From: Lachnospiraceae bacterium
GTDB lineage: Bacteria > Bacillota > Clostridia > Lachnospirales > Lachnospiraceae
Direction: 5' to 3'
DNA length: 40,403 nt
Assembly (NCBI GenBank): GCA_022794255.1
Contig: JAAWEL010000059.1
Coordinates: 1-40,403 of the forward strand
Under the pieces are notes generated by a model. That model saw only the letters and a list, made by a program, of their open reading frames with translations. It had not been told where the DNA came from and made no database searches. The translations under genes were made by a program, and so were the position numbers. Numbering within the stretch: position 1 is the first letter of the stretch; each line of letters starts with the position of its first letter. Shown here piece after piece: positions 1,331-38,738 of this stretch.

Positions 1331-1347
1331 AATGAGGTGACGTGTAT

Positions 1348-9413: not shown

Positions 9414-9435
9414 GCAGATGAAAGATGGTGAGGGT

Positions 9436-9819: not shown

Positions 9820-9850
9820 CTATACGGGAATACGTAAATGGAGGATTATT

Positions 9851-11457: not shown

Positions 11458-11513
11458 AAAATCATGTGGATTGGAATGTTAGAGAAAATGAACCAGAAGG
11501 ATGGAAATTGACG

Positions 11514-16136: not shown

Positions 16137-17009
16137 TCACATCCGATTGGACAAGATGGCATTGATAGAAGGATTCAGTCCTGTGGGATTGTTTAAAAAG
16201 AGAGCGGACTGAATAATTCCCCAGATGGTGATCTCACAGATGTTGGGAAGGAACATGTAGTGCATATCATCCGGGATATCGTGGCTGTAATAGAGAATAT
16301 AATCAGCCAGTCTTGCCATAGTGGAATCTGGGGCGGACGTGATGGCAATAATGGTGGCGCCGGTTTCTTTGGCCAGGGAAAGAGGAACATTGACACTTTT
16401 GGCCTCCCCGCTGTAAGCGGAAGCCACCACCACATCATTTTTTGTAAGAAGGCTGGCAGCTACCTTCATATCCACGATATCATTGTAGGCCTGGCTCAAA
16501 ATCCCGGCAAGCATCAGCATCTGCTGTCCGTACAGGGAGGAGATATGGGCACTGCTTTGACCATAGATATGGATGGTGTGGGCAGTTTGAAGAGCATGGA
16601 TGATTTCCTTTAACTGTTTTAAATCAATCGTGCGCAATGTCTCAGAAAAGCACAAAGAGCCGGTTTTTAACAGTTTTTCTACAACCATATCCATGGAATC
16701 CGTCTTGGTGATCAATGTTTCTTCATTGTCAGGAAGCTTTCTTTGAGACATATGGAATTTCATTTCGCTGAAGCCGGAGTAGGACAGAGACTGGCAAAAG
16801 CGGGTGATGGTGGATGCTGCAATACCGGTTTTGCGGGACAGCGTGGTGATGGAACAGCGAATTACCTCGTCCTGATGAGAGAGAATATATTTTGCCAGTT
16901 TTTTTTGCTGTTTGGGCAGAAAGGAATATTGTGAGCTGATCCGGCTGATATATTCGTTGGTTTCGTCTTTTAGATTTAGGTCCTTGTGAATGTAATCATT
17001 GATGTTCAT
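16137..17009 (-). CDS. RpiR-family transcriptional regulator (HTH + SIS domain)
   Basis: This 290-residue protein has an N-terminal RpiR helix-turn-helix (about 25-95: LPKQQKKLAKYILSHQDEV, SITTLSRKTGIAASTITRFCQSLSYSGFSEMK) and a C-terminal SIS sugar-phosphate-binding domain (about 130-270: HIYGQSSAHISSLYGQQML, VASAYSGEAKSV). Such regulators sense phosphorylated sugars or related catabolites. The start is the ATG ending at 17009, preceded on the minus strand by AAAGGAG; a longer open frame upstream runs into the promoter region and is not credible. It is transcribed divergently from the TRAP operon and is the likely local regulator of it. Confidence 0.9.
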   Translation of the reverse strand: MNINDYIHKDLNLKDETNEYISRISSQYSFLPKQQKKLAKYILSHQDEVIRCSITTLSRKTGIAASTITRFCQSLSYSGFSEMKFHMSQRKLPDNEETLITKTDSMDMVVEKLLKTGSLCFSETLRTIDLKQLKEIIHALQTAHTIHIYGQSSAHISSLYGQQMLMLAGILSQAYNDIVDMKVAASLLTKNDVVVASAYSGEAKSVNVPLSLAKETGATIIAITSAPDSTMARLADYILYYSHDIPDDMHYMFLPNICEITIWGIIQSALFLNNPTGLNPSINAILSNRM

Positions 17010-17040
17010 AAAGGCTCCTTTACATAAGCTGTATGATTTC

Positions 17041-17237
17041 ATGGAAATAATATATATTATAGCACAAAAAGAACAGAATGGAAATATTTTCATAAATAGA
17101 TGTATATTAGTGGAAATGCTTATAAAAATGGAAAATATAGATTTACTTTTAGTTAAATTTGACATATAATTGAGGCGTAAAGGGAATAAAAAACAAAAAC
17201 TGTAAGTAAAAAAGTTCCATTATGGAATAGATTTCCA
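17041..17237. promoter_or_regulatory. Divergent promoter region with six TGGAAA-type repeats (likely RpiR operators)
   Basis: TGGAAA occurs at 17042, 17079, 17111 and 17129, TGGAAT at 17223, and the inverse TTTCCA at 17232. Two sites are palindromic: TGGAAATATTTTCA (17079-17092, one mismatched pair) and TTCCAT-T-ATGGAA (17215-17227, perfect). The plus-strand promoter is TTTACT (17142-17147), 17 bases, TATAAT (17165-17170). A minus-strand -10 TATAAT reads at 17061-17056, with the first palindrome covering the expected -35 position. The arrangement suits one repressor controlling both directions, and the leader site at 17215 lies downstream of the TRAP transcription start. Confidence 0.6.
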
Positions 17238-17271: not shown

Positions 17272-18384
17272 ATGAGAAAAACAGTAGCTTTAGGAATGAC
17301 CATGATAATGACATGTGCATTGGCAGCATGTGGGAACAAAAACGCGGCAGACACTTCAACCCCTTCTCCATCTCAGGTATCACAGGAGGCAGAAGATAGC
17401 GGTGCAGGAGGAAAGGAAGCATCAGCTCCTTCTCAGGAAGTGATAAAACTGCGTTATGCAGATACCTGTGCAGATATTAATCCAGATGGATGGGGAAATG
17501 CAAAATTCATTGAATTGGTAAATGAGCGGACAAACGGACAGGTTTCGATTGAGTATTTTGATCGGTGTTCTTTGGGATCGGACAAGGAGATTACCCAATC
17601 ATGTCTGGATGGAACGTTGGATATGTGTAAATGTACATCGGGAAATCTTACAGAATTTTCAGATGGTCTTGCCATTTTCGATCTTCCAGGCTTGTTCCGG
17701 GATTTTGAGCATGCCAGGACGGTTGTGGAGGATCCCGAGATGCGGCAGTATTTTATTGATGATATTTATCAGGAGACCGGCCTGTATGCAATGATTTTTG
17801 AATTTGATGAGCCGAGAGGCCTTGGAACTACTGGTAAAGAAATCCGCACTCCGGATCAGGCGAAGGGACTAAAACTGCGTACTACAGGTGCTCCTATTGA
17901 GATGGCCCTGTTTAATCAGTGGGGTGTTTCCTCCATTGCCCAGTCTATGACAGAGGTATATACATCTCTTCAAAACGGAGTGATTGACGGGGCATATAAT
18001 CAGGCATATATACTGAATCAGGAAAGCTGTTCAGAGGTAATTGACAACTGGGTGCAGTTTAATCAGTCCTGGTGCTTGTCCGTAAAATTTATGGGGCCTA
18101 CTGCTATTGAAAAATTAGGCGGTGTGGATTCGGAACTGTTTAAGACGGTATTGGAATGTGCCCGTGAGGCAGAAACATGGCAGGCAGAACAGTGGCTTAG
18201 TTTTGTGGCAGAATCTCATAAGGATATGGCCGAAAAATACAATGTGAATGTGGTGAAACTGACGGATGAGGAGCTGGAAGTATGGTTTGATGAATCTCAT
18301 GCCATTTGGGATCAGTATGTTGGTGAGGGCAAACAATTCAGTCAGGATTTAGTTGATAAAATTCAGAAGCTGGCAAAAGAATAG
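17272..18384 (+). CDS. dctP: TRAP transporter substrate-binding lipoprotein, DctP family (first of two)
   Basis: This 370-residue protein has a lipoprotein signal (LAAC lipobox, Cys about residue 20), a Ser/Pro/Gly-rich linker and a DctP fold. Family landmarks include DGTLDMCKCTSGNLTEF, FDLPGLFRD and the GLKLRTTGAPIEMALF segment; the Arg there lines up with the arginine that binds the substrate carboxylate in TRAP proteins. It captures an organic acid outside the membrane and delivers it to the DctQM permease encoded next. AGGAGG is well placed before ATG 17272. A paralogue of the same length lies at 26068 in the same operon. The ligand cannot be read from sequence; a sugar acid is likely from the neighbours. 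Confidence 0.92.
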   Translation: MRKTVALGMTMIMTCALAACGNKNAADTSTPSPSQVSQEAEDSGAGGKEASAPSQEVIKLRYADTCADINPDGWGNAKFIELVNERTNGQVSIEYFDRCSLGSDKEITQSCLDGTLDMCKCTSGNLTEFSDGLAIFDLPGLFRDFEHARTVVEDPEMRQYFIDDIYQETGLYAMIFEFDEPRGLGTTGKEIRTPDQAKGLKLRTTGAPIEMALFNQWGVSSIAQSMTEVYTSLQNGVIDGAYNQAYILNQESCSEVIDNWVQFNQSWCLSVKFMGPTAIEKLGGVDSELFKTVLECAREAETWQAEQWLSFVAESHKDMAEKYNVNVVKLTDEELEVWFDESHAIWDQYVGEGKQFSQDLVDKIQKLAKE

Positions 18385-18408
18385 CAGACATGAGAAAGGT
18401 TTGGTGTT

Positions 18409-18912
18409 ATGAAAGATTTGATTCATCTACTGGATTCACTGAGTGGATTTTGCATGAAAATTGGTGAAATGATTATTGGAATCTGTGGGATCGGGATTCT
18501 GATCTCCATGATATTTGCCATTATACCACGTACTCTTTTTGGATTTTCCTTTGCCTGGCCGGAGGAGACATCCAGGTATCTGATGATATGGGTGGCATTT
18601 ATCGGATCCAGTGTGGCTATGAAACGCTGTGAGTTGGTCAGCTTTGAATTTTTTGTGAGCATGTTTCATGGAAAAAACAAATTTGCAGCAGCTTTGATTG
18701 CAAGAGCGATTACTTTGTATTTTTTGGTGATTTTTCTTCATGTGGGAGTTCAGATGCTTCCGTCCTACATGAAATCAAAGGCAGTTGGGCTTCCCATCAC
18801 TTTGTTTTGGCCGGCTTTAGGGTTGTTTGTAGGAGGAATCTTTATGCTGGTCCATACCATTGACGGAGGACTTCATGATATCCTGAGTTTGATGGGAAAG
18901 GAGGGGGCATAA
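18409..18912 (+). CDS. dctQ: TRAP transporter small permease, DctQ family
   Basis: This 167-residue protein has four predicted membrane helices and the family pattern FAWPEETSRYLMIWVAFIGSSVAMKR between helices 2 and 3. The DctQ subunit scaffolds the DctM transport subunit in the cytoplasmic membrane. Its stop codon shares one base with the dctM start (TAATG at 18910-18914), so translation is coupled. The ribosome site before ATG 18409 is weak. Confidence 0.93.
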   Translation: MKDLIHLLDSLSGFCMKIGEMIIGICGIGILISMIFAIIPRTLFGFSFAWPEETSRYLMIWVAFIGSSVAMKRCELVSFEFFVSMFHGKNKFAAALIARAITLYFLVIFLHVGVQMLPSYMKSKAVGLPITLFWPALGLFVGGIFMLVHTIDGGLHDILSLMGKEGA

Positions 18913-20201
18913 TGCAACTGGCTGTTTATTTGTTCCTTTTACTGTTTGGCATTTTATTTTTAGGAGTACCTATTGGAATTGGCATGTGTACCAGTGTACT
19001 TTTGGCTTTACAGATATGGGGGGAGATGCCTCTTAACATGATTTTCCGTCAGTATTATCAGGGAGTTGATTCTTACTCCCTGCTGGCGATTCCCATGTTT
19101 GTCCTGGCTGGAGAACTGATGATGCAGTGCGGGCTGATCCGGGATATTATGCGTCTCTGCAAAGTGTTTGTGGGACGTTTGCGGGGAGGTCTGGCTCATG
19201 TGAACATTCTGGCATCTGTATTGTTTGCTGCAATGTCCGGCTCTGCGGTGGCTGATACCGCATCCGTAGGCTCCATGCTGATACCTGCCATGGAGGAGGA
19301 GGGATATGATGCAGAGTTTTCAGTGGCAGTGACAGCATCCTCTTCCTGCTTAAGTCCCATGATTCCGCCTAGTATTCCCATGGTGGTTTATAGCTCCACC
19401 ATGTCTGTATCCACAGCCGCCATGTTTATGGGAGGAGTGATTCCTGGTATTCTCACAGCAATCGCTTTGGGGACGATTGTGGTTTATCTCAGCAAAAAGC
19501 ATAATTATCCTAAGGATGAGGAGAAAATTCCTGTAAAGGAGGCTGTGAGAACAGTCATCGAGTGTATTCCTGCGATTGTAACGCCTTTGATTATCATGGC
19601 AGGTATATTTACCGGATGGTTTACCGCAACGGAGTCAGCCGCCATTGCCTGTGTATGGGTATTGCTGGTAGGGAAATTTTTTTATCGCACACTGACAAAA
19701 GAAAAGGTATGGAAGGCATTGGTGACAAGCATGACAACCGCCGGAGGTATTTTGCTGATCAATGCGGCGGCAAAGCCATTAAGCTATCTGGTAGCTTTCT
19801 CTGGTGTGCCAACCTTGTGCGCTCAGTTTATTTCAGCTCATATATCCAGTAAATATGTGGTGCTGTTCTTGATTAATATTATTTTGCTGATTTTGGGAGC
19901 CATGATGGAATGCTCAGCCAATATTTTGATCTTTGCTCCGATTTTAGTTCCAATGGCAGTTTCTTATGGGGTGGATCCGCTGGCAATTGGAGTGGTATTC
20001 TGTATTAACTGTGCTGTCGGAATTTGTACTCCTCCTTTTGGGCCCACTTTGTTTATCGGTTCGGCGATTGCAAAAAAACCTGTAACCTCTTGCATGAAGG
20101 CTATTTTGCCCTTTTGTATGGCTGAGATTGCGATTGTGCTACTCATTACCTATGTGCCAGGGCTGATTACCTTCCTGCCTAAGCTTTTTGGTTTGTATTG
20201 A
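18912..20201 (+). CDS. dctM: TRAP transporter large permease, DctM family
   Basis: This 429-residue protein has about 12 hydrophobic segments. Family motifs are PMFVLAGELM, MSGSAVADTASVGSMLIPAM, SSSCLSPMIPPSIPMVVYS in the first half and NCAVGICTPPFGPTLFIGSAIA in the second; these form the Na+- and substrate-binding hairpins of the elevator-type transporter. It drives secondary uptake of the acid captured by the DctP proteins. It is the only permease pair for the two binding proteins of this operon. Confidence 0.95.
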   Translation: MQLAVYLFLLLFGILFLGVPIGIGMCTSVLLALQIWGEMPLNMIFRQYYQGVDSYSLLAIPMFVLAGELMMQCGLIRDIMRLCKVFVGRLRGGLAHVNILASVLFAAMSGSAVADTASVGSMLIPAMEEEGYDAEFSVAVTASSSCLSPMIPPSIPMVVYSSTMSVSTAAMFMGGVIPGILTAIALGTIVVYLSKKHNYPKDEEKIPVKEAVRTVIECIPAIVTPLIIMAGIFTGWFTATESAAIACVWVLLVGKFFYRTLTKEKVWKALVTSMTTAGGILLINAAAKPLSYLVAFSGVPTLCAQFISAHISSKYVVLFLINIILLILGAMMECSANILIFAPILVPMAVSYGVDPLAIGVVFCINCAVGICTPPFGPTLFIGSAIAKKPVTSCMKAILPFCMAEIAIVLLITYVPGLITFLPKLFGLY

Positions 20202-20216
20202 AAACTGCAGTGGAGA

Positions 20217-20242
20217 AAAGAGCCTGTATTAGCAGGCTCTTT
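20217..20242 (+). terminator. Intra-operon hairpin after dctM (attenuator or processing site)
   Basis: A 10-bp perfect stem (20217-20226 with 20233-20242) with a 6-base loop lies in the 71-base gap between the transporter genes and the catabolic genes. Only AAATATAG follows, with no T-run, so full termination is unlikely. It may set the relative amount of transporter and enzyme mRNA. Confidence 0.6.
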
Positions 20243-20272
20243 AAATATAGAGATGAAAGCAGAGGACAAAAT

Positions 20273-20944
20273 ATGAAGATGATTGATTTATCAACGGAGC
20301 TGCGGGACAATATGCCAAAGCCGCCCAGCGCTCCGGTTGTAGAGATGCGGTATGTTTTAATGCACTCGGCCCAGGAGGAAGCAATCAAGGGCTATACCAA
20401 CAAAATGGAACAGTTTACCATTACCACTCATGTGGCCACCCACATTGATGCGCCGTCTCATTTCTGTATGGACGGAAAAAACATTGATGAATATCCGGTT
20501 GATTTTTTCTATATGGTACCCACACTCATGCTGGATATTGAGCGGGATGTGTATGGAGAAATCTGCAAAACGGATATTAGGGAGGCAGAAGAAAAATGGG
20601 GGGAAATACGGCCGGGAGATATGGTAATTCTGAATACGGGCTCGTTCCATCGCTATGAGGAGGAGGATTACAACAAATCTCCTTATCTGACCGAGGATGG
20701 GGCTCAGTACCTGGCGGATAAGCAGGTGTCCATGGTGGCGATTGACTCCTTTACAGTGGATGATCCGAGAAAAAAAGAAAAGCCAGCCCATGTGATATTG
20801 CTTTGCAGATATGGAATACCGGTGATTGAATGTGTAGTAAACCTGGATCAGGTGCCGGAACATCGATTTAAGACTATCTGTATGCCTTTAAAGGTCAAAG
20901 AGGGTTCTGGCGCCTATACGAGAATGGTTGCGGTGCTGGACTGA
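20273..20944 (+). CDS. Cyclase-family metal-dependent hydrolase (kynurenine formamidase-like)
   Basis: This 223-residue protein has the metal-site motif HVATHIDAPSH (His53, His57, Asp59, His63), one Gly-to-Ala change from the family form HxGTHxDxPxH, and starts with the usual MIDLSTELRDNMP. Members hydrolyse amides such as formylkynurenine or isatin; other members sit in sugar-acid operons where their reaction is unknown. A tryptophan role is not supported here because no kynurenine-pathway gene is near. The start at ATG 20273 follows AGAGGA; an earlier in-frame ATG at 20198 overlaps dctM and would translate through the hairpin. Ring opening of a lactone or cyclic derivative of the imported acid is a guess. 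Confidence 0.82.
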   Translation: MKMIDLSTELRDNMPKPPSAPVVEMRYVLMHSAQEEAIKGYTNKMEQFTITTHVATHIDAPSHFCMDGKNIDEYPVDFFYMVPTLMLDIERDVYGEICKTDIREAEEKWGEIRPGDMVILNTGSFHRYEEEDYNKSPYLTEDGAQYLADKQVSMVAIDSFTVDDPRKKEKPAHVILLCRYGIPVIECVVNLDQVPEHRFKTICMPLKVKEGSGAYTRMVAVLD

Positions 20945-20962
20945 CAGGAAATGAGGTGGAAA

Positions 20963-21757
20963 ATGAATCTGGATTATGTGAAAGAAGTATTTTCGCTGGA
21001 AGGCCGGCAGGCTGTGGTGACAGGGGCAAGCTCTGGCATTGGACGTGGGATCGCCGTGTCCCTGGCGAATCTTGGGGCCCATGTGGCTTTGCTGGGAAGA
21101 AATCAGGAAGGACTTGACGAGACAGAGAGACAGATCCGGGAAAAAGGCGGAAGCTGTGAGTCCTACCAGGTAGACATAACCGTGGAGGATCAGGTGGAGG
21201 AATTTTTCCAAAAGCATCAGGATCTTCATGGGCAGATGGATATTTTTGTGGCAAATGCAGGAATCAACTATCGGGCAGAGCTTTTAGAGACCGAGATGGA
21301 AGCGGTGGACCGGATTATTAATACAGACTTTAAGGGAACCCTCTATGGAGTGATCCGCGCCGGAAGGATTATGAAAAAACAGAAATCCGGCAATATTGTT
21401 GTGATCACCTCCATCAATGGAATCAGTGCCATGGGAAATCTGGCTGTATACTCCAGTATTAAATACGCCCAGGAGGGGCTGGTAAAGGCTCTGGCCTCCA
21501 GCCTTGGTCCCTACGGCGTTCGCGTAAACAGCTGCGCGCCGGGAGTGATTCTCTCCAACATGAACAGGAATGTATATGGAGAGGAAGAAAATTTAAAGGC
21601 GAAGCTAAAGTCCATTCCTCTTGGCAGAATCGGCCAGCCCCGAGACATCGGAGATGTGGTGGCTTGTATGGTCAGCGATGGTTTTCGATTTATGACAGGT
21701 ACAACCGTTCTGGTGGATGGAGGAGAACTGATGAGAGGGATGCAGAAGCAGGATTAA
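20963..21757 (+). CDS. Short-chain dehydrogenase/reductase
   Basis: This 264-residue classical SDR has the nucleotide motif TGASSGIG (about 19-26), the NAG element (VANAGIN), catalytic Ser near ITSING and YSSIK as the Tyr-x-x-x-Lys pair, then APGVILSNMN and a C-terminal GTTVLVDGG. It oxidises or reduces a hydroxyl/keto group of a pathway intermediate with NAD(P). ATG 20963 follows GAGGTGG closely; ATG 20951 is the alternative but lacks a ribosome site. It is one of two SDRs in the operon, and the second (24285) is closer to KduD. Confidence 0.88.
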   Translation: MNLDYVKEVFSLEGRQAVVTGASSGIGRGIAVSLANLGAHVALLGRNQEGLDETERQIREKGGSCESYQVDITVEDQVEEFFQKHQDLHGQMDIFVANAGINYRAELLETEMEAVDRIINTDFKGTLYGVIRAGRIMKKQKSGNIVVITSINGISAMGNLAVYSSIKYAQEGLVKALASSLGPYGVRVNSCAPGVILSNMNRNVYGEEENLKAKLKSIPLGRIGQPRDIGDVVACMVSDGFRFMTGTTVLVDGGELMRGMQKQD

Positions 21758-21820
21758 GACCAGCGAAAGGAAGGATAATCCCCAAGAGACATTTATATTC
21801 GGGGAAAAGGAGAACAAAAC

Positions 21821-22090
21821 ATGAGAAAAGTAGTTAAATTTGCTCCAAAGGACAATGTGGCAATTGTTCTGGATGACTTGGTGCCAGATCAGGATATTGA
21901 TGTGGAAGGAGAGAACATACAGGTCAGGGATGAAATTCCCTACGGTCACAAAATCGCCTTGACAGACATTGCTGTGGGCTGCTGTGTCTATAAATACGGA
22001 GAGCCGGTGGCAAGATGTACCCATGAGATAAAAAAGGGAGACTGGGTACATGTACATAATGTGGAGAGTATAAGGGGGTTAGGACGATGA
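21821..22090 (+). CDS. UxaA-type dehydratase, small (SAF-domain) subunit
   Basis: This 89-residue protein matches the N-terminal domain of altronate/galactarate dehydratases (NVAIVLDDLVPDQDIDVEG, PYGHKIALTDIAVGCCVYKYGEPV, KKGDWVHVHNVES). In E. coli UxaA and GarD this domain is fused to the large domain; here it is a separate gene whose stop overlaps the next start (ATGA at 22087). The same split is known in sulfolactate sulfo-lyase (SuyA/SuyB) and in other split members. AAAGGAG precedes ATG 21821. It works together with the following protein. Confidence 0.88.
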   Translation: MRKVVKFAPKDNVAIVLDDLVPDQDIDVEGENIQVRDEIPYGHKIALTDIAVGCCVYKYGEPVARCTHEIKKGDWVHVHNVESIRGLGR

Positions 22091-23244
22091 GAAAAACATT
22101 TCTGGGCTATGCCCGGCCGGACGGGAGTTATGGGGTGAGAAATTATGTGGCAGTTATCAGCACAGCAGATAATTCAAATTTTGTGGCCAGGCGTGTGGCC
22201 CAGATGATTCATGGTACCATACCGGTCTGCCCCTGCTTTGGCCGGGGAGAGATCGGTCCGGATATGGAGCTGCACATCCGGACCATGGGCGGCATCGGGG
22301 CCAACCCCAATGTTCATTCTGCTGTGGTGGTGTCTTTGGAGCCTGCCATTGGAGAGAAGATCGCTGCCATAATCCGGGCAGCGGGCAAGAAGGCTCTGGT
22401 TTTCTCTATGGATGAATGTGGCGGTTCCATAGGATGTACGGAGCAGGCTGTGCGGGCAGCAAGAGAACTGATTATAGAGGCATCCATGGTAAAGCGGGTG
22501 GAGGTCGGCATAGAGAAGCTGCGTCTGGGAGTGGAATGCGGCGGGTCGGATACAACCTCCGGGGTGGTGTCAAATCCGGCTACCGGTGCAGTGGCAGACC
22601 GGCTGGTGGATGAGGGAGGAACGGTGATCCTTTCCGAGACTACTGAGTGGATGGGGGCAGAAAGCAACCTGACCGGCCGTGCGGTTACTCCGGAGCTGGG
22701 AGAGCGAATCGTAAAGGCAATTCAGTGGTATGAGGATTACATCAAAAGTATCGGGGTGGATTTAAACGGTTTTAATCCGGCTCCGGACAATATTAAGGGT
22801 GGTTTGTCCACCATTGAGGAGAAGGCTCTGGGATCCATCAAAAAAGGAGGGACCAGACCAATTCAGGACATGCTTACCTGTTCTCAGAAGCCGGAAAAGC
22901 CGGGAATGTATCTGATGGATGCACCTACCGGCGGGGTGGAAAATACCACAGCTTTAGCAGGAGCAGGGTGCCAGCTCATTATTTTTTCCACAGGGAAGGG
23001 GAATCCTTTGGGCAATCCGGTTGTGCCTACCATTAAGGTTACAGGAAACAACCGCACCATGGAAAAATCTGGTGAGAACATTGATGTGGACTTAAGTGCA
23101 GTGATTACGAAAGATATGAGTATAGAAGAGGCAGGCGAAATTTTATATGACAGAATGATTGATCATGCCAATGGGAAGCTTACAACAGCGGAGGCCCTGG
23201 GAGATTTGGAAATTGCAGTTACAAGAATTGGATTTACTGTATAG
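22087..23244 (+). CDS. UxaA/GarD-type dehydratase, large subunit, atypical cysteine pattern
   Basis: This 385-residue protein opens with LGYARPDGSYGVRNYVAVIS and carries the family blocks GVECGGSDTTSGVVSNPATG, SETTEWMGAE, KGGLSTIEEKALGS, LAGAGCQLIIFSTGKGNPLG and PTIKVTGNN. The family dehydrates (or eliminates sulfite from) 2,3-dihydroxy-acid-type substrates. Against E. coli UxaA as I remember it, Cys151 (ECGGSD) is kept, but four other conserved cysteines are replaced: Asp28, Arg53, Pro86 and Ser250. New cysteines appear at 48/50 (CPC) and 111/117. This suggests a separate subfamily with a different metal site or substrate. Sulfolactate lyase is an alternative that I cannot exclude; no sulfite-handling genes are nearby. 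Confidence 0.85.
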   Translation: MRKTFLGYARPDGSYGVRNYVAVISTADNSNFVARRVAQMIHGTIPVCPCFGRGEIGPDMELHIRTMGGIGANPNVHSAVVVSLEPAIGEKIAAIIRAAGKKALVFSMDECGGSIGCTEQAVRAARELIIEASMVKRVEVGIEKLRLGVECGGSDTTSGVVSNPATGAVADRLVDEGGTVILSETTEWMGAESNLTGRAVTPELGERIVKAIQWYEDYIKSIGVDLNGFNPAPDNIKGGLSTIEEKALGSIKKGGTRPIQDMLTCSQKPEKPGMYLMDAPTGGVENTTALAGAGCQLIIFSTGKGNPLGNPVVPTIKVTGNNRTMEKSGENIDVDLSAVITKDMSIEEAGEILYDRMIDHANGKLTTAEALGDLEIAVTRIGFTV

Positions 23245-23270
23245 GAAGTATTCCACGAGGAGGAGACAAA

Positions 23271-24272
23271 ATGAAAGCGATTGTTTATAAGGGAGCGGGG
23301 CAGATTGCCGTGAAGGATGTTCCCATGCCAAAGGTACCGGAGGGGTGGGCGCTTGTCAAAGTGTCTCACGCAGGAATCTGCGGAACAGACTTGAATATTT
23401 ATGGAGGGACCCATCCCAGAGCAAAGGCACCTCTGGTTATTGGCCATGAATTTTCCGGAGAAATGGCACAAGATGCCCCGGGACTTCCTAAGGGGACCCG
23501 GGTAACCGTATATCCTTTGCTTAGTTGTGGGAATTGTGAACCATGCAAAACCGGGAATACCCATGTATGTAATACCCTGGGACTTTTGGGGATTGACTGT
23601 GACGGGGGAATGGCGGAATATGTGGCCTGCCCGGTTGATAAGATTATTCCTGTGCCGGATATGGTTTCTGATAAGGTGGCAGCTTTTGTGGAGCCTATTG
23701 CCGTGGCAGTTCATGCTCTTCGGGAAACCGGCTTTGTGCCGGGAGACAACGCCATTGTGCTGGGAGCCGGCACAATCGGAATTGCCACAGCGATCACTCT
23801 GCGCAAATTTGGAGCATCGAAGGTAATTATCTCAGAGACAGATGAAACCCGCGCAAGTCTGGCAGCCAGTCTGGGATTTCAGGTAATAGACCCTGCAAGT
23901 ACGGATATGAGTAATTTCGGAAGAGAGAACTTAAAGGCCGGCGGCTTTGATTGGGTATACGATTGTGCAGGAGTGCAGGCAGTGGCAGATACGCTTCTGG
24001 ATCTGGTGAAGGTTCGGGGACATATTGTGATCATTGCTTCCTACAAGAAGCCGGCAGCCATGCCGCTGTTTAAGGGAATGGCAAAGGAGACAGATTTCCG
24101 TTTTTGCCGGGTGTACAGACAGAAGGATTTTGAGATTGCTGTCACCATGGCCCAGGATCCGGATTATGAGAAAATTATCACCCATGTGCTGCCTGTGGAG
24201 GATGCCCAGAAGGGATTTGATCTTTTGTTTACCAAGGGGACAGGAGCCGTGAAGGTAATGTTCCGGTTTTAA
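23271..24272 (+). CDS. Zinc-dependent medium-chain alcohol dehydrogenase (polyol/sugar-acid type)
   Basis: This 333-residue MDR has catalytic-zinc ligands in GICGTD (Cys) and GHEFSGE (His, Glu), the structural-zinc quartet CGNCEPCKTGNTHVC, a FVEPIAVAVHAL helix and the NAD-binding motif VLGAGTIGIATA. It resembles sorbitol/idonate/threonine dehydrogenases. In the operon it follows the dehydratase and precedes a KduD-like enzyme, so oxidation of a secondary alcohol of a sugar acid (such as an aldonate) is likely. AGGAGGAG lies before ATG 23271. Confidence 0.9.
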   Translation: MKAIVYKGAGQIAVKDVPMPKVPEGWALVKVSHAGICGTDLNIYGGTHPRAKAPLVIGHEFSGEMAQDAPGLPKGTRVTVYPLLSCGNCEPCKTGNTHVCNTLGLLGIDCDGGMAEYVACPVDKIIPVPDMVSDKVAAFVEPIAVAVHALRETGFVPGDNAIVLGAGTIGIATAITLRKFGASKVIISETDETRASLAASLGFQVIDPASTDMSNFGRENLKAGGFDWVYDCAGVQAVADTLLDLVKVRGHIVIIASYKKPAAMPLFKGMAKETDFRFCRVYRQKDFEIAVTMAQDPDYEKIITHVLPVEDAQKGFDLLFTKGTGAVKVMFRF

Positions 24273-24284
24273 AGGAGAAGGCTT

Positions 24285-25049
24285 ATGACGAATTTATTTG
24301 ATCTTACAGGTAAAAAGGCTATTGTCACAGGTGGAACCAGAGGATTAGGTCACGGAATGGCGGAAGGGCTCATGGAGGCCGGGGCAGAAGTTGTTATATT
24401 CGGAAGTAATGAAAAGGTGTATACAGTAGCAGAAGCCTTTTGCCAAAAGGGGTTTTCCTGTATAGGGATTGCTGTGGATTTAAGCGATTGTGACAGTCGC
24501 CGGATGGCTTTTTTGAAGGCAGTAGAGCTTCTTGGAGGCCTTGATATTCTGGTCAACTGTGCCGGAATCCAAAGGAGGCATAAAAGCGAAGAATTTCCTC
24601 TTGCGGATTGGCAGGATGTGTTAAATGTAAATTTGACAGCTCCCTTTGAGCTTTGCCAGATGGCGGCAAAGGAATTTATGGCTCATGGAAAGAAAGGAAA
24701 AATCATTAATATTTCTTCCATGCTGGCATTTTTCGGAGGATTTACTGTTCCGGCTTATGCGGCTTCCAAGGGTGGAGTCACCCAGATGACCAAGGCTTTC
24801 TGCAATGAGTGGGCAGGCAAAGGGATCAATGTCAACTGTATTGCCCCTGGTTATATGGACACAGAGATGAACGCGGCCCTGACTGATCCTGCAAATCCCC
24901 GTTATGCAGAGATTACCGACCGGATTCCGGCCCATCGGTGGGGGACTGGCGAGGATATGAAGGGGGCAGTGATTTTTCTTGCCTCAGCGGCATCCGATTA
25001 TCTGAATGGGGCTCTGATCCCGGTAGATGGCGGATATCTGGTGAAATAG
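24285..25049 (+). CDS. Short-chain dehydrogenase close to KduD (2-dehydro-3-deoxy-D-gluconate 5-dehydrogenase type)
   Basis: This 254-residue SDR has TGGTRGLGHGMA, CAGIQRRHKSEEFPLADWQDVLNVN split across its middle, ISSMLAFFGG, catalytic YAASK, and the C-terminal part INVNCIAPGYMDTEMN ... RIPAHRWGTGEDMKG ... VDGGYLVK. The IQRR, DWxDVLxVNL, PAYxASKGG and RWG elements are characteristic of KduD/gluconate 5-dehydrogenase-like enzymes, which interconvert keto-deoxy sugar acids. This is the strongest single pointer to a hexuronate- or aldonate-like substrate. AAAGGAG precedes the ATG and the gap to the gene before is 12 bases. Confidence 0.88.
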   Translation: MTNLFDLTGKKAIVTGGTRGLGHGMAEGLMEAGAEVVIFGSNEKVYTVAEAFCQKGFSCIGIAVDLSDCDSRRMAFLKAVELLGGLDILVNCAGIQRRHKSEEFPLADWQDVLNVNLTAPFELCQMAAKEFMAHGKKGKIINISSMLAFFGGFTVPAYAASKGGVTQMTKAFCNEWAGKGINVNCIAPGYMDTEMNAALTDPANPRYAEITDRIPAHRWGTGEDMKGAVIFLASAASDYLNGALIPVDGGYLVK

Positions 25050-25062
25050 GAGGAAATCACAA

Positions 25063-26049
25063 ATGAGAGTTATTGTTACGGATTGTGATCACGATAACAT
25101 GATTCAGGAGGAAGAGGTGTTTGAAAGGGCAGGAATGACTTTTGAACATCTGGTATGCAAAACAGAGGAGGATTTGATCGGGCAGGCAAAGGGCGGAGAG
25201 ATTTTGATGACCCAATATGGCCCCTTTACCAGGAAGGTCATGGAAAAGTTAAGGCCTGAACTGAAGATGATCGTTCGTTATGGGGTGGGAGTGGACACCA
25301 TTGATCTGGAAGCAGCAACGGATCTGGGGGTGCAGATATGTAATGTGCCGGATTATGGCATGAATGAGGTGGCTGATCAGGCTATGGGGATGCTTTTGGC
25401 GCTGGCGAGGAAAATCTGCTATATAAACGACTGCACCAAGCATAAAACATGGAATTATACGGAAGCAATCCCGGTTCGCCGGATTCCTGGTTCCGTAGTG
25501 GGAATTGTCGGACTGGGAAGAATCGGACGTACTCTTGCAAAAAGGCTTAAAGGCTTTGAATGTCGTCTGATTGCCTGTGATCCTCTCTATCAGGAGGGGA
25601 CAAAAGAAGCAGGGGTGGAGATTGTGTCTTTTGATACATTGCTGGCAGAAGCGGATATGATTTCCATCCACTGTCCCTTGACCCGGGAAACGGAAAGCTT
25701 GTTTGATTTAACCGCATTTAAAAAGATGAAGCAGAGTGCCATCCTGGTGAATACAGCCCGGGGAGGAATAGTCAATGAAGAAGATCTTTTGAAAGCATTG
25801 CAAGAGGAATGGATTGCCGGGGCTGCCCTGGATGTGGTAAAGAAGGAGCCAATGGAGGTGGGAGCTGCCTTATTTGCCCTTGATAATTTCCTGTGCAGTC
25901 CACATATGGCCTGGTATTCTCAGGAATCATCTCTGGAGCTGAAACGAAAAGTAGCCGAGGAAGCAGTCCGGTTTGCAAAGGGTGAACCTGTGAAAAATCC
26001 GGTGAATGTTTACAGAAGGGATAAGGGTTCAGAGACCATATTATCTTAA
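25063..26049 (+). CDS. D-isomer-specific 2-hydroxyacid dehydrogenase
   Basis: This 328-residue protein has the NAD-binding GIVGLGRIGRTLAKRL, the catalytic Arg in VNTARGGIVNEEDLL, the Glu in DVVKKEP and the His in SPHMAWYSQES. It is closest in appearance to the phosphoglycerate/hydroxypyruvate-type members of the family. It reduces a 2-keto acid or oxidises a 2-hydroxy acid in the cytoplasm. It could handle the short acid released after cleavage of the main intermediate. No aldolase is present in the operon, so cleavage would need an enzyme encoded elsewhere. TAGGAGG precedes ATG 25063. Confidence 0.88.
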   Translation: MRVIVTDCDHDNMIQEEEVFERAGMTFEHLVCKTEEDLIGQAKGGEILMTQYGPFTRKVMEKLRPELKMIVRYGVGVDTIDLEAATDLGVQICNVPDYGMNEVADQAMGMLLALARKICYINDCTKHKTWNYTEAIPVRRIPGSVVGIVGLGRIGRTLAKRLKGFECRLIACDPLYQEGTKEAGVEIVSFDTLLAEADMISIHCPLTRETESLFDLTAFKKMKQSAILVNTARGGIVNEEDLLKALQEEWIAGAALDVVKKEPMEVGAALFALDNFLCSPHMAWYSQESSLELKRKVAEEAVRFAKGEPVKNPVNVYRRDKGSETILS

Positions 26050-26067
26050 AAAGAAAAAGGAGATTAA

Positions 26068-27180
26068 ATGAAAAAAATATTAGGGAATATTCTTTTGGCT
26101 GCAGGTTTCATGATGGGAATTATGGGCTGTGGAAATCAGCAAACAGCTGCTACGACAGCAGCTGGAACGGAAAATGTGAGCATTAACGAGACAGAAGCAC
26201 CGGAAAAAAAGGAAGAATCCGCTGCAAAGGATACAATTGTCTTGAGATTTGGAGACACCTGCACGGATGAGTCGGGAGACGGACAGGGGAATTTGAAGTT
26301 TATAGAGCTGGTGGAGGAGCGTACAGATGGAAGAGTAAAGATTGAATATTATCCGGCTTCTCAGCTGGGATCGGACAAAGCGCTTACTCAGGCATGTATG
26401 GATGGAACCCTTGATATCGCCAAATGCTCTGCAGGAAATATGTCAGAGTTTACAGATGCCATGTTGTTCTTTGATCTGCCGGGATTATTCCACTCTGCAA
26501 AGCATATGCGGGCAGTTTGTAACAGTGAGATCATGGAAAATGTGAACAAGGAGATGTATGATTCCATTGGACTTTATGCTCTCATGATCAATATCGATTC
26601 CGGTGAGCCACGGGGAATTGCCGGACGGGGAAGTACCGTAAGAGTTCCTGCCGACATAGCAGGGAAGAAGATCCGTTCCACGGGTTCTAGTGTTGAGATG
26701 GCTTTATTTGACCAGTGGAAAGCAAGCTCCATATCTCTGCCCTTTGATGAGGTTTATAACGGTCTTAACACGAACGTTATCGATGCCACCTACAATCAGG
26801 CTAATATTATTGACATCAACAGTATGATTGAGGTTACTGATTATTTTACCCCAGTCAATCAGTCTTGGGTCGCAGGTGCCAAGCTTATAGGAAAGAGCGC
26901 AATTGAAAATCTTGGTGGACTTGACTCTGAGCTTTTTCAGATTATAAAGGAATGTGCCGAGGAGACCGATACCTTTAAGGATGAGAACAATATCATTTAC
27001 ACAGACGCTTCCTATAAAAAAATGAAAGAGAAAGGCATTGATGTTGTGGAGCTGACGGATGAGGAACAGGCCCAGTGGGACGCAGCTTCTGAAAAGGTTA
27101 GAGAGCAGCTTGTGGGGGATGGAAAGGGAATTTCTCAGGAGCTGGTAGACAGTATTATCTCCATAGATCCTGACAGATAG
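26068..27180 (+). CDS. Second TRAP substrate-binding lipoprotein, DctP family
   Basis: This 370-residue lipoprotein (lipobox IMGC, Cys about residue 21) is a clear paralogue of the protein at 17272, sharing FIELVEERTDGRVKIEY-, LGSDKALTQACMDGTLD- and SAIENLGGLDSELFQ-like blocks. It differs around the ligand pocket: GKKIRSTGSSVEMALF in place of GLKLRTTGAPIEMALF, and YNQANI in place of YNQAYI. No second DctQM pair is present, so both binding proteins probably feed the same permease and widen or switch its substrate range. AAAAGGAG precedes ATG 26068. It lies between enzyme genes, not with the transporter genes. Confidence 0.9.
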   Translation: MKKILGNILLAAGFMMGIMGCGNQQTAATTAAGTENVSINETEAPEKKEESAAKDTIVLRFGDTCTDESGDGQGNLKFIELVEERTDGRVKIEYYPASQLGSDKALTQACMDGTLDIAKCSAGNMSEFTDAMLFFDLPGLFHSAKHMRAVCNSEIMENVNKEMYDSIGLYALMINIDSGEPRGIAGRGSTVRVPADIAGKKIRSTGSSVEMALFDQWKASSISLPFDEVYNGLNTNVIDATYNQANIIDINSMIEVTDYFTPVNQSWVAGAKLIGKSAIENLGGLDSELFQIIKECAEETDTFKDENNIIYTDASYKKMKEKGIDVVELTDEEQAQWDAASEKVREQLVGDGKGISQELVDSIISIDPDR

Positions 27181-27215
27181 GTATAAACGGATAAATTGAT
27201 AAGGAGAAAAACAAT

Positions 27216-28400
27216 ATGCTTAATTTTGAATTTAACTTGACAACCCGCGTGATCTTTGGACGTGATGCAGAGGATAAGATCCCAGAGATTATCAAAGGAA
27301 ACGGTTTTAAAAAGGTGCTTCTTCACACTTATGACAAGGATTTTGCCCAAAGGATTCCCATATACAAAAAGGTGAAGAGTCTCCTGGAAGATGCAGAAAT
27401 TGAATATGTGGAAATGTTAGGGGTGGAGCCAAATCCCACTCTTGGAGTGGTGGAAAAAGGAATCGAGCTTTGTCGCAGAGAGGGTGTGGACTTTATTCTG
27501 GCTATCGGCGGTGGCAGCGTGATTGACTCTGCCAAGGGGATTGCCCTGGGCGTTCATACCAGTATTGAAGACGTATGGGCCTTTGCTGAGGGAAAGAAAG
27601 AGCCGGATTGTAATCAGACTTTAAAGGTAGGAGTTGTTTTGACAGCCGCAGCTGCCGGCTCTGAGACCAGCACGGCTACGGTTTTGACGAATGAGAAGAT
27701 GAACCTGAAACGAGGTGCTCATCATGACGCCAATCGTCCCCTTTTTGCTGTGATGAATCCGGAGGTTACTTATACGGTTCCCCCATTCCAGACAGCCTGT
27801 GGGGTGTTTGACAGTATTATGCATGCCTGTGAGCGTTATATGACTTCTTCCACAGATGCAATGCTCTCAGATCGTGTGGGGGAGGGAATTATTAAATCGA
27901 TTATTGAGGCCGGTTATGAGGTAATGAAAAATCCACAAAGCTATGAGGCCCGTGCGGCGGTTATGTGGGGCGCATCTATGGCTCATAATAATTTGATTGG
28001 CTGCGGACGCTTAAAAGGAAGCGGGATCCATCTGATTGAAGAGGAGATGCATTCGGTTAACCCGAAAATCATTCATGGTGCAGGCCTTTCGGTTGTATTT
28101 CCGTCCTGGGCGCGACAGGCAGTAAAAAAAGCACCCATGCGCCTGGCTCAATTTGCAAACCGGATATGGAATGTGGATATGGATTTTGAGCATCCGGAGA
28201 AAACAGCTATGAAGGGGATTGAGCATATGGAATCCTTTATCGATTTTTTGGGACTTCCCAGATTTATGCATGAAATTGGGGTAAAGGAAGAAGATTTTCC
28301 GCTGATTGTAGATCAGTGTACCAGAAATGGCAGAAGGGTGTCTCAGCTTTGCGATTTTACTCCGGAGGATGTTATGGAAATTCTTCAGAGGGTAAAATAA
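27216..28400 (+). CDS. Iron-type (group III) alcohol dehydrogenase with an altered metal ligand
   Basis: This 394-residue BDH/YqhD-type protein has the nucleotide-binding GGGSVIDSAKGIA, the metal-site residues Asp199 and His203 (FDSIMH), His272 and His287 (IIHGAGL). The usual HxIEHELSAxY element reads HLIEEEMHSV, so the third metal-binding His is Glu276. Carboxylate ligands can hold divalent metal, so the enzyme may still work with a changed metal preference. It likely reduces an aldehyde or ketone made by the pathway. TAAGGAG lies before ATG 27216. Confidence 0.87.
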   Translation: MLNFEFNLTTRVIFGRDAEDKIPEIIKGNGFKKVLLHTYDKDFAQRIPIYKKVKSLLEDAEIEYVEMLGVEPNPTLGVVEKGIELCRREGVDFILAIGGGSVIDSAKGIALGVHTSIEDVWAFAEGKKEPDCNQTLKVGVVLTAAAAGSETSTATVLTNEKMNLKRGAHHDANRPLFAVMNPEVTYTVPPFQTACGVFDSIMHACERYMTSSTDAMLSDRVGEGIIKSIIEAGYEVMKNPQSYEARAAVMWGASMAHNNLIGCGRLKGSGIHLIEEEMHSVNPKIIHGAGLSVVFPSWARQAVKKAPMRLAQFANRIWNVDMDFEHPEKTAMKGIEHMESFIDFLGLPRFMHEIGVKEEDFPLIVDQCTRNGRRVSQLCDFTPEDVMEILQRVK

Positions 28401-28467
28401 CAAGCGTGAAGCGGCATTTACAGCCGAACGGAAATGCTGGGGAGCTATCGGAAGATAAGGAGGAGCC

Positions 28468-29838
28468 ATGGCCGGCAGAATACATGAATTTGTATTTGAT
28501 TTTTCATGGAATAAAGCAGGAGAAAAAATATGTGAGCTGGCAGAAAGAGCCTTTATAGATACAATTGCTGCTATGTTTGCAGGTGTTTCCTCAGAACAGG
28601 TACGCCGTACCAGCGCTGCCTTGGAGATTGATTTGAGTAAAAAGGGAGACTTGGACAGTCCAACAATCATAGGATTCGGACATAAAAGTGTGACTTTATC
28701 AGAAGCAGTGCTGTTAAACGGTGTTCTGGCTCATTCCTGTGAGTACAATGATTTATTTTATAAACGCCCGGGGCATCCCAGCGCGGTTTTAGTTCCGGTT
28801 GTATTAGGGCTGGGAGAGAAGCTTCATAAAAGTGGACGAGAGGTGTTGGAGGCTTATCTCTGTGGTTTGGAGGTAACAGGACGGGTCAGTGAAAGCCTGA
28901 TGCCAGATCATCACATCAAGGGATTTCATTCCACCAGCACAGTGGGAATTGTGGGGGCAGCTATGGCCGCCGGAAAGCTTTTGAAGCTGTCAAAGAAGGA
29001 ACTTTTATATGCAGCAGGTCTTGCATGCACTTTCTCCTGTGGTCTGCGGGGCAATTTAGGATATATAGCCAATTCTCTTCATGTAGGGAATGCGGCATCT
29101 GGCGGGTTAAAGTCAGCGCTGTATGCGAAGGCTGGAATTCAGACAAGGGAAGATCTGATGACTATGCCAGATGGGTATATCTGTGCATTTGGGGGAAAAG
29201 CAGAATGGTTCCAGGAGCAGATGAATCTTTTGGGAAAAGTATCGGTTTTTGAAGCGCCAGGGCTGTTATTAAAAAAGTATCCGGTCTGCTTTTCTGCCTA
29301 TCAGGCAATTGAGTCTGCAATATGGCTAAAAGAGCATTATGCGTTTACCCCATATGAGATTGAGGAAGTGGTTTGTGAGACCTCGCCTCATCATTATCTC
29401 TCGTTGCCTATGGAATGGCCGGATAGTTTGTATGCGCAGCGGTTTTGTGTTCCTTTTTGTGTCTGCTGGGTTTTAAGCGGCCATCCGGTCAATGCAGAGG
29501 AGTTTGCAACTACTCACTATCAGGAACCGGAAATGACATATTTGCGAAGTCGGTTCCATTATGGAGTGGACCCGCTACAAGATGGAAACCAGAGTGTTGG
29601 AAGTACTTATATTCGGATTCGCCTGAAGGACAAAAGAAGGTTAGAGCGGCAGGAATTTCCTAAAAAAGAGGATAAGATTGAAAACTGGACCCAGGACGCT
29701 CTAAGAGAAAAGCTGGTCTTGTGCAGTAAGGAAATACTGGGAACTGAAGGAAGCCTGACACTCTGGAATGAACTGCATCAATTTGCCAGGACAGAGGATG
29801 TGGCAGAATGGCTGGACCGCATTCATATGAAGCGTTGA
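28468..29838 (+). CDS. MmgE/PrpD-family protein (2-methylcitrate dehydratase-like)
   Basis: This 456-residue protein has the helical N-terminal domain (AERAFIDTIAAMFAG, GVLAHSCEYNDLFYKRPGHPSAVLVPVVLGLGE), the HIKGFHSTSTVGIVGAAMAAG block typical of the family and the smaller C-terminal domain. Members include 2-methylcitrate dehydratase, cis-aconitate decarboxylase and iminodisuccinate epimerase, all acting on polycarboxylic acids; no methylcitrate-cycle genes are here, so the name PrpD is not assigned. It is the last gene of the TRAP operon, preceded by AAGGAGGAG, and a hairpin follows within six bases of its stop. Confidence 0.85.
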   Translation: MAGRIHEFVFDFSWNKAGEKICELAERAFIDTIAAMFAGVSSEQVRRTSAALEIDLSKKGDLDSPTIIGFGHKSVTLSEAVLLNGVLAHSCEYNDLFYKRPGHPSAVLVPVVLGLGEKLHKSGREVLEAYLCGLEVTGRVSESLMPDHHIKGFHSTSTVGIVGAAMAAGKLLKLSKKELLYAAGLACTFSCGLRGNLGYIANSLHVGNAASGGLKSALYAKAGIQTREDLMTMPDGYICAFGGKAEWFQEQMNLLGKVSVFEAPGLLLKKYPVCFSAYQAIESAIWLKEHYAFTPYEIEEVVCETSPHHYLSLPMEWPDSLYAQRFCVPFCVCWVLSGHPVNAEEFATTHYQEPEMTYLRSRFHYGVDPLQDGNQSVGSTYIRIRLKDKRRLERQEFPKKEDKIENWTQDALREKLVLCSKEILGTEGSLTLWNELHQFARTEDVAEWLDRIHMKR

Positions 29839-36272: not shown

Positions 36273-36290
36273 AGGAGCAGGAGGAACTCT

Positions 36291-37328: not shown

Positions 37329-37360
37329 ACAAAAAAGCATCAAAAAAGGAGGAGCAAGCT

Positions 37361-38704: not shown

Positions 38705-38738
38705 AGAGCATGGGTTAAGAGAGAAAAGGAGAAGTGCC

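Follow-up and report, generated by a model that had tools for sequence, protein, structure and literature searches.

We analysed a 40,403-nt contig of a Lachnospiraceae bacterium (JAAWEL010000059.1, positions 1 to 40,403 of the forward strand, assembly GCA_022794255.1), called the window at its full length, and focused on a 13-gene operon at 17272-29838. The operon joins a tripartite ATP-independent periplasmic (TRAP) transporter to several oxidoreductases and one two-subunit lyase of the UxaA/GarD/SuyAB superfamily, named UxaS-UxaL (UxaSL) below. The large subunit, UxaL, groups with SuyB, the large subunit of sulfolactate sulfo-lyase (SuyAB), and lacks the cysteine set of the UxaA/GarD sugar-acid dehydratases. 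We propose that UxaSL is a SuyAB-lineage lyase in a new gene setting, which is less than proof that it is a SuyAB, and that an ordinary polyhydroxy acid is a less likely substrate of the operon than a small acid that contains sulfur or is similar. The more specific proposal, that the operon takes up a small hydroxy-acid anion and UxaSL splits a C3 hydroxysulfonate-class acid to pyruvate and sulfite, is in our estimation evenly balanced between right and wrong. Our best guess for the substrate class, still unproven, is a C3 hydroxysulfonate, i.e. 3-sulfolactate or a compound yielding it.

UxaSL consists of a separate small SAF-domain subunit and a large GD_AH subunit. This is the architecture of SuyAB, but it is not exclusive to it, given that split dehydratases exist (L049). 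Large-subunit relatives were gathered from genome contigs, family and wider genomes, and plasmids, and 60 rows were aligned. Four cysteines are conserved in UxaA/GarD enzymes except sulfolactate sulfo-lyase, according to the D-arabinonate dehydratase paper (PMC6336799; this and all other papers given by PMC number are cited from the portions of their text available to us). Because the cysteine spacing in a Paracoccus single-chain row (36/35/68) nearly matches that derived from the residue numbers of that paper (39/35/68), we take the aligned cysteine columns to be the published positions. The first three cysteines occur together in 41/60 rows and are absent from the other 19, and the fourth is kept in all 60. 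UxaL carries N29, R53, a deletion at 84 and C151 at these positions. The 19 rows comprise the window, its close relatives L001-L005, L042 and L067 (N, R, deletion), L043 and L044 (I, R, deletion, with the fourth cysteine kept), seven Anaerolineae rows (Y, R, E), L050 and L035.

In the phylogenetic tree, a 14-row branch unites the window clade (UxaL and five close relatives) with the SuyB-position proteins of five loci, two Variovorax rows and L067. Its support is 94/93, and 94% of 200 bootstrap trees give it a single origin. Support reaches 100/99 for the window clade and 100/98 for the 21-row branch that also includes the seven Anaerolineae rows. Six long-branch rows (L035, L036, L037, L046, L047 and L048) and L050_8490 were dropped for the tree with the 14-row branch and L082-L085 were added; in earlier row sets, which contained the six, the corresponding branch reached 91/93 (9 rows) and 93/90 (10 rows). 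Twelve alignment columns are common to the window clade and SuyB and occur in <=10% of the sugar-acid subgroup rows (D28, S30, R53, H63, the two-column deletion at 84, P86, A247, D261, N306, A349 and T379). The number of such group-specific columns shared with the window clade is 17 for L067, 16 for the Variovorax pair, 12 for SuyB, 7 for the Anaerolineae and 0-6 for each of the eight sugar-acid subgroups, in a comparison made against the listed sugar-acid subgroups with L039, L049, L050, L070 and L072 left out. The window genome has two GD_AH_C genes, uxaL and a longer one on contig C53, which falls together with L051, annotated as an altronate dehydratase family protein.

The SuyB references were taken from the following loci. 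By record annotation, L082 (C. pinatubonensis HN-2; PMC11382572 deals with HpsN from the same species) holds hpsN, hpsO, a major facilitator superfamily transporter gene and a galactitol-1-phosphate-5-dehydrogenase-like (Zn-dehydrogenase-type) gene, followed by the UxaA pair. Both L043 and L085 have TRAP genes, HisD, a short-chain dehydrogenase (SDR), a Zn-dependent alcohol dehydrogenase (Zn-ADH)-type gene, the UxaA pair, Ldh and a putative sulfate exporter, and L085 adds tripartite tricarboxylate transporter (TTT) genes and a hydroxyacid dehydrogenase. In L044 the UxaA pair stands with TTT genes, a hydroxyacid dehydrogenase, Ldh and a putative sulfate exporter; the record of L083 is without annotation. 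A 51% identical UxaL relative in genome G668 lies beside TTT genes and an Ldh whose best NCBIfam match is L-sulfolactate dehydrogenase (301.9 bits, under the cut-off of 500). Even at the SuyB position, records label the genes 'UxaA family hydrolase' or 'D-galactarate dehydratase', so that a branch of this kind is easily missed.

A preliminary description of the operon had read the split pair as a sugar-acid dehydratase and had found no match to the sulfolactate pathway. The first point is not supported, given the grouping of the large subunit with SuyB and its missing UxaA/GarD cysteines. As to the second, the TRAP transporter, SDR, Zn-dehydrogenase, small and large UxaA-family subunits and D-2-hydroxyacid dehydrogenase make up, superfamily for superfamily, much of the hps/suy/slc clusters of C. 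pinatubonensis, Paracoccus, Rhodobacteraceae and, in the gut, Taurinivorans muris. The TRAP transporter is shared with L043, L085 and T. muris, whose hpsN-dctPQM2-suyAB arrangement is a gut precedent for TRAP with SuyAB (PMC10507020), and a sulfite reductase is encoded in the genome in both cases (DsrAB in T. muris, Asr in the window genome). The dehydrogenases, however, correspond only at superfamily level, and the window differs by an additional cyclase-family hydrolase, MmgE/PrpD protein, Fe-dependent alcohol dehydrogenase (Fe-ADH) and second DctP, and by its connection to a module of ATP-binding cassette (ABC) transporter and glycoside hydrolase family 10 (GH10)-like genes. As for the HpsN or SlcC/ComC pair expected beside suyAB, the 13 genes include one D-2-hydroxyacid dehydrogenase and neither HisD/HpsN nor Ldh/ComC.

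The operon could work as follows. The TRAP transporter would import a small hydroxy-acid anion, and the encoded dehydrogenases would oxidise or epimerise it, adjusting its oxidation state or C2 centre. For the D-2-hydroxyacid dehydrogenase we propose an SlcC-like role: together with an SDR or the Zn-dehydrogenase it may invert the C2 centre, as SlcC/ComC do. UxaSL would then eliminate the C3 substituent (beta-elimination), giving pyruvate and most likely sulfite; a sulfonate is suggested as the substituent because of the UxaL lineage. As the lyase would give pyruvate directly, no kinase or aldolase would be needed. The sulfite would be reduced by an Asr sulfite reductase encoded elsewhere in the genome, where AsrB (323 bits, cut-off 289) and AsrC (376 bits, cut-off 324) lie at the start of contig C59, followed by a hemC-cobA-hemD-type siroheme gene. 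AsrC passes its cut-off in 0/14 control genomes and in 3/8 genomes searched, several of which are metagenome-assembled genomes (MAGs) and perhaps incomplete. The cyclase-family protein (PF04199) would be expected to hydrolyse a lactone, ester or amide; the nearest solved structures to the MmgE/PrpD protein are iminodisuccinate (IDS)-epimerase and cis-aconitate decarboxylase.

DctP, DctQ and DctM are encoded together, and the window genome has 20 DctP genes. The best solved relative of DctP1 is the isethionate-binding protein IseP (8t9t, E 4e-35), which ranks seventh among the solved relatives of DctP2. We compared DctP1 with the IseP contacts Arg156, Arg177, Asn217, Ser95, Asn98, Tyr153, Trp200 and His244 by manual reading of the HMMER alignment. 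It keeps both arginines, Asn217 and Asn98 and has Thr for Ser95. We do not accept DctP1 as an isethionate-binding protein, as what it keeps is limited to general acid-binding residues plus a few more.

Several observations weigh against a sulfonate substrate or the SuyB kinship. At the remaining IseP contacts, DctP1 lacks Tyr153 (Asp), Trp200 and His244 (Ser). UxaL is only 38-40% identical to the SuyB references (37.9% to the C. pinatubonensis product, 38-40% to the alphaproteobacterial ones), and these are named from gene context and are not tested proteins. The values lie under the >70% identity used as search threshold for SuyB in PMC6278857, in a comparison with these references and not with the tested Desulfovibrio sequence. 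The approximately unbiased (AU) test does not reject (p-AU 0.189) an alternative, 6.25 log units worse, in which the window clade stands outside a group formed by the other 15 rows of the 21-row branch, so that the branching order inside this branch is tentative. L035 (D, S, Y), L050_7001 (A, T, I) and the seven Anaerolineae rows also lack the cysteines and have no known sulfonate context; loss of the cysteines alone is thus not proof of SuyB kinship. As a review calls SuyAB Fe(II)-containing (PMC12890257), we treat the loss as a mark of lineage and not as proof of another leaving group, and do not claim that UxaSL is metal-free. Neither HpsN, ComC, an aldehyde dehydrogenase nor a sulfate exporter was found among the scanned window genes (Pfam/NCBIfam scans of the genes beyond 16042 other than the second aldo-keto reductase (AKR2) and the ABC solute-binding protein), and the genome's one match to the sulfate exporter model TIGR00698, on contig C8, stays under the cut-off at 87.7 bits. 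AsrC exceeds its cut-off in 2/6 genomes with the UxaL clade (the window and L004, not L001, L002, L003 or L005). The 2-hydroxyacid dehydrogenase was not seen in the relatives' loci (L001-L005), and the conserved partners, namely the cyclase-family hydrolase, MmgE/PrpD, GH10-like and aldo-keto reductase (AKR) proteins, have no role in the sulfolactate pathways of the literature examined.

A contig scan for UxaL, which detects close relatives only, returned 12 loci, five of them at 65-88% identity (L001-L005). Searches for further members of the clade added little: among 24 genus genomes only its own matches, and 23/299 family genomes match at E<=1e-60, none except its own at >42% identity. In the phylum 9/398 genomes, one of them its own, match at E<=1e-95, and the best of the others reaches 51%; in the class 1/391 matches at E<=1e-110, its own. 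The UxaSL pair changes neighbours among the five close relatives. In the Oscillospiraceae MAGs L002 and L003 it stands with dctPQM, MmgE/PrpD and the cyclase-family hydrolase, and L003 has a putative sulfate exporter directly behind UxaL (PF03601 250 bits; TIGR00698 131 bits, under the cut-off of 232.6). In L001, L004 and L005 it is found with a histidine kinase and response regulator (HK/RR), ABC permeases, a solute-binding protein, a GH10-like enzyme and Fe-ADH. Clostridiales bacterium 1_7_47_FAA (L004 and L086) has the TRAP part and the HK/RR/ABC/GH10 part side by side. Identities to the window in the first part are RpiR 66%, DctP 75%, DctQ 82%, DctM 89%, MmgE/PrpD 49% and cyclase 80%, and in the second part RR 65%, HK 61%, ABC permeases 81/81%, SDR1 80%, AKR1 77%, UxaS 69%, UxaL 88%, Fe-ADH 79%, solute-binding protein 75% and GH10-like enzyme 81%. 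The TRAP operon is hence not a unit by itself but part of a larger locus. For Zn-ADH, the KduD-like SDR, the 2-hydroxyacid dehydrogenase, DctP2 and AKR2, no close counterpart was found in L004, L086 or L087; the best seen were an AKR at 29% in L004 and an SDR (29%) and a DctP (28%) in a separate TRAP cluster of L087.

Parts of this locus recur in other combinations. L001 and L005 have a second module with a ManD-type dehydratase (81-84% between loci), HIBADH, an M24-family protein, an RspB-like Zn-ADH and SDR3, and L005 also RbsD/FucU (Pfam). The module is also present in genomes G237 (L076) and G250 (L077), both outside the 23/299 family genomes with a UxaL match, and SDR1 relatives occur in the GH10 clusters of these two. 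It includes one to three GH10-like paralogues and ABC genes in L005/L090, L001, L076 and L077, with RbsD/FucU in G250 by reading; the role of the M24 protein is puzzling. Aldose-epimerase-family genes are found in L002 and L004. The genome of L002 has a second TRAP cluster (L091, G717:C3) near an SDR1 relative (53%), with a DUF362 relative and a cysteine-desulfurase-like protein.

A lyase of the SuyAB lineage might also expel something other than sulfite from C3, e.g. an alkoxide, phenolate or carboxylate, with the acid freed from a glycoside taken up by the ABC/GH10 module. The linkage of uxaSL to ABC, HK/RR and GH10 genes in the window, L001, L004 and L005 would fit this, as would the ManD-type dehydratase, AKR and SDR genes of nearby or related modules (L001, L005, G237 and G250), together with the RbsD/FucU and aldose-epimerase-family genes mentioned above. 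GH10 and GH5 enzymes cut beta-glycosides, a preference unfit for the alpha-linked sulfoquinovosides of plant lipid, and AsrC is not over its cut-off in 4/6 genomes with the UxaL clade. However, the nearest outside relatives of UxaL (SuyB, L067 and L042) sit with sulfolactate-type genes, and no lineage member with another leaving group was encountered, although no search was aimed at one; we regard a leaving group other than sulfite as rather improbable. We likewise consider it unlikely that this is an ordinary sugar-acid dehydratase operon, as read in the preliminary description, in which a polyhydroxy acid is dehydrated to a 2-keto-3-deoxy acid and the kinase and aldolase are encoded elsewhere. 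In its favour, sugar-acid operons often contain KduD-like SDRs and Zn- and Fe-dehydrogenases, the superfamily overall is that of UxaA/GarD, and the genome has an HpcH/HpaI-family aldolase elsewhere (127.9 bits). The L091 cluster, with its SDR1 and DUF362 relatives, also carries a gene like that for 2-keto-3-deoxygluconate (KDG) kinase (200.6 bits, under the cut-off of 400) and one for 2-keto-3-deoxy-6-phosphogluconate (KDPG) aldolase (157.2 bits, cut-off 156.05). This is the only aldolase seen in the wider neighbourhoods L086-L095, and it belongs to a different cluster (BLAST against a labelled set, with most other open reading frames (ORFs) not Pfam-scanned). Against a dehydratase stand the loss from UxaL of three of the four cysteines, which 41/60 family rows keep, its grouping with SuyB, and its score with the galactarate dehydratase model TIGR03248 (192.7 bits versus a curated cut-off of 730.85), by which that identity was rejected.

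The operon could alternatively be devoted to 2,3-dihydroxypropanesulfonate (DHPS), with Fe-ADH, SDR and Zn-ADH oxidising DHPS via sulfolactaldehyde to sulfolactate ahead of the SuyAB-like step. SDR and Zn-dehydrogenase genes do lie beside the UxaA pair in L082, L043 and L085, and DHPS 2-dehydrogenases are known as HpsO and HpsP. Yet the aldehyde-to-acid step is missing, since the scanned window genes include neither HpsN nor an aldehyde dehydrogenase, and the SDRs and Zn-ADH match at superfamily level only (26-39%), which makes this a very unlikely explanation.

The gene list of the preliminary description stands for all 13 genes. They are tightly packed ORFs on the plus strand, with gaps of -4 to +71 bases if the ATG at 20273 is taken as the start of the cyclase-family gene, their families agree with the Pfam/NCBIfam calls, and an RpiR-family regulator is divergent upstream (Table 1). 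TRAP-type acid uptake coupled with oxidoreductases and a single UxaA/GarD/SuyAB-superfamily lyase is supported too, and, as described, no kinase or aldolase is present among the scanned window genes. The claim of a complete route is not borne out, as the core genes are part of a larger locus with the ABC/GH10 module and five window genes are without close counterpart in the nearest relative's locus. A characterised operon with the same enzyme set and a known substrate, named there as a refutation, was not met in the literature examined, and we uphold the earlier interpretation in part. Because promoter and terminator scans did no better than shuffles (29 matches versus a shuffle mean of 33.1, and 12 versus 15.5), the operon borders were set by spacing and conservation in a relative. 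Downstream, the locus continues with HK/RR, ABC permeases, two AKRs and a solute-binding protein up to a divergent GH10-like enzyme, which has an N-terminal extension; it may extend further, since the contig stops at 40403, directly behind the GH10-like gene. KduD (2-dehydro-3-deoxygluconate 5-dehydrogenase) was rejected as the identity of SDR2, whose TIGR01832 score is under the curated cut-off of 338.85.

Table 1 Genes of the TRAP operon, its divergent regulator and the adjoining module in the window.
Feature	Position	Strand	Evidence
MurR/RpiR-family regulator, divergent from operon	16137..17165	-	PF01418 69 bits, PF01380 55 bits; 66% identical copy divergent from TRAP genes in 1_7_47_FAA
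DctP1, TRAP solute-binding protein	17272..18384	+	PF03480 147 bits; 75% in 1_7_47_FAA
DctQ, TRAP small permease	18409..18912	+	PF04290 70 bits; 82% in 1_7_47_FAA
DctM, TRAP large permease	18912..20201	+	TIGR00786 403 bits, over cut-off; 89% in 1_7_47_FAA
Cyclase-family hydrolase	about 20273..20944	+	PF04199 106 bits; 57-60% copies beside uxaSL in L001, L002, L003, L005; 80% in L086 part of 1_7_47_FAA locus
SDR1, short-chain dehydrogenase	20951..21757	+	PF13561 195 bits; 56-80% relatives near uxaSL in L001, L002, L004, L005
UxaS, SAF-domain small subunit, SuyA-like	21821..22090	+	PF08666 30 bits; 31-40% over 53-91 aa to small subunits of L042-L044
UxaL, large catalytic subunit, SuyB lineage, proposed C-S lyase	22087..23244	+	PF20629 293 bits; tree, cysteine columns, group-specific columns
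Zn-dependent dehydrogenase, accessory	23271..24272	+	PF08240 97 bits; 39% over 152 aa to Zn-ADH of L043 hps-type cluster
KduD-like SDR2, accessory	24285..25049	+	TIGR01832 286.9 bits; 37% to SDR of L043 hps-type cluster
D-2-hydroxyacid dehydrogenase, accessory	25063..26049	+	PF02826 195 bits; 37% over 241 aa to hydroxyacid dehydrogenase beside SuyAB-like genes in L042; 28% to that of L044
DctP2, second TRAP solute-binding protein	26068..27180	+	PF03480 167 bits; 45% identical to DctP1; no second copy in L086 TRAP operon
Fe-dependent alcohol/aldehyde dehydrogenase, YqhD/BdhA-like	27216..28400	+	PF00465 140 bits; 6l1k E 5e-77; 66-79% copies beside uxaSL in L001, L004, L005
MmgE/PrpD-family protein	28468..29838	+	PF03972 163 bits; 34-49% copies in L002, L003, L005, L086
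AraC-type response regulator, adjoining module	29911..31458	-	PF00072, PF12833; 65% in L004, 47% in L001, 43% in L005
Sensor histidine kinase, adjoining module	31418..33229	-	PF06580, HAMP; 61% in L004
Two ABC sugar-type permeases	33374..35213	+	PF00528; 81% each in L004
Two aldo-keto reductases: AKR1 YdjG-like, AKR2 47% to AKR1	35262..37328	+	AKR1 PF00248 200 bits; AKR1 77% in L004, 53% in L001
ABC solute-binding lipoprotein	37280..38704	+	called by place and conservation; 75% in L004, 59% in L001 and L005
GH10-like glycoside hydrolase	38667..40316	+	PF00331 65 bits; 8b73 E 1.5e-14; 81% in L004, 51-52% in L001 and L005

Elsewhere in the window, reading of the translations gives carboxyltransferase, biotin-carrier, decarboxylase membrane subunit and pyruvate/oxaloacetate carboxyltransferase-like genes at 17-5156, probably a biotin-dependent sodium-pumping decarboxylase, and McsA-, McsB- and ClpC-like genes at 9379-13973 with a GntR-type regulator where CtsR is usual.

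Other known systems share parts of this gene set. The UxaA/GarD dehydratases (altronate, galactarate, idonate and arabinonate) have the same Pfam domains as UxaSL (SAF, GD_AH_second and GD_AH_C), while UxaL differs by the missing cysteines and two-residue stretch and by Arg at position 53. The tandem sulfofucose-sulfolactate pathway of Paracoccus wurundjeri (PMC12421959) shares ABC uptake, an SDR dehydrogenase and SuyAB. Its MR/MLE-family dehydratase is matched in L001 and L005, not in the window, and the aldose epimerase of some of its clusters in L002 and L004. Unlike in that pathway, no aldolase or SMP-30-type lactonase is seen among the classified ORFs (many ORFs being unscanned), and GH10-like enzymes and TRAP are added. 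Clusters with GH188 (PMC11465081) share a SuyAB homologue, a D-3-phosphoglycerate dehydrogenase (PGDH)-type hydroxyacid dehydrogenase and an ABC transporter, whereas the window genes scanned include no NAD-dependent glycosidase, kinase or aldolase.

The wider family offers further arrangements. In L006-L012 (Anaerolineae/Chloroflexi), the cysteine-less UxaL relatives lie behind a GH4-like protein, and L006, the only one of the seven loci scanned for these two, also has phosphofructokinase and Cgl0159-like aldolase genes beside ABC genes. A sulfoquinovosidase-type context was rejected for these rows: the seven GH4-aligning neighbour proteins lack the GH188 R-x3-L/Y-x-K spacing, and the loci are for this reason not counted as sulfosugar clusters. 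Two phylum genomes (L068:8001-13188 and L074:7707-11466) have a cysteine-bearing split UxaA dehydratase near a group 22 nickel-pincer isomerase (LarA-like) and a PGDH-type dehydrogenase, with an FGGY-type kinase in between in L068; the arrangement looks like an epimerase-dehydratase pair. In L071 a sigma-54-type regulator and a split UxaA dehydratase are followed by KdgT-like transporter, D-threonate-kinase-like and PdxA-like genes, and ORF sizes and order in L073 are nearly the same.

Anaerobes with SuyAB include Desulfovibrio DF1, and the enzyme has been listed in 12 Firmicutes genomes at >70% identity (PMC6278857). In the human gut, sulfoquinovose is converted to H2S by Agathobacter rectalis and Bilophila wadsworthia via DHPS transfer, and the HpsN-SuyAB route of DHPS degradation is so far described as demonstrated only in aerobes (PMC12330013). 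Our open-access literature search (title and abstract-start level; SuyAB, sulfolactate, gut desulfonation and related topics) found no work on the present locus. In its fullest form, which we offer as a speculation with a modest chance of being correct, gut fermenters of the Lachnospiraceae and Oscillospiraceae would have their own sulfonate route, in which a distinct SuyAB branch is fed by a TRAP-imported sulfonate and by a glycoside, with the sulfonate on the aglycone or the sugar, taken up through the ABC/GH10-like/AKR module. The cyclase-family hydrolase and MmgE/PrpD protein would then be new steps, and Asr, where present, would carry the dietary compound through to sulfide in one cell, without cross-feeding to Desulfovibrionaceae. 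A branch of the SuyAB lineage peculiar to gut clostridia, coupled to TRAP uptake and in some members to Asr, would be an added possible source of sulfite and H2S. Placement in the SuyAB lineage also yields a brief, testable list of substrates for an otherwise unassigned operon.

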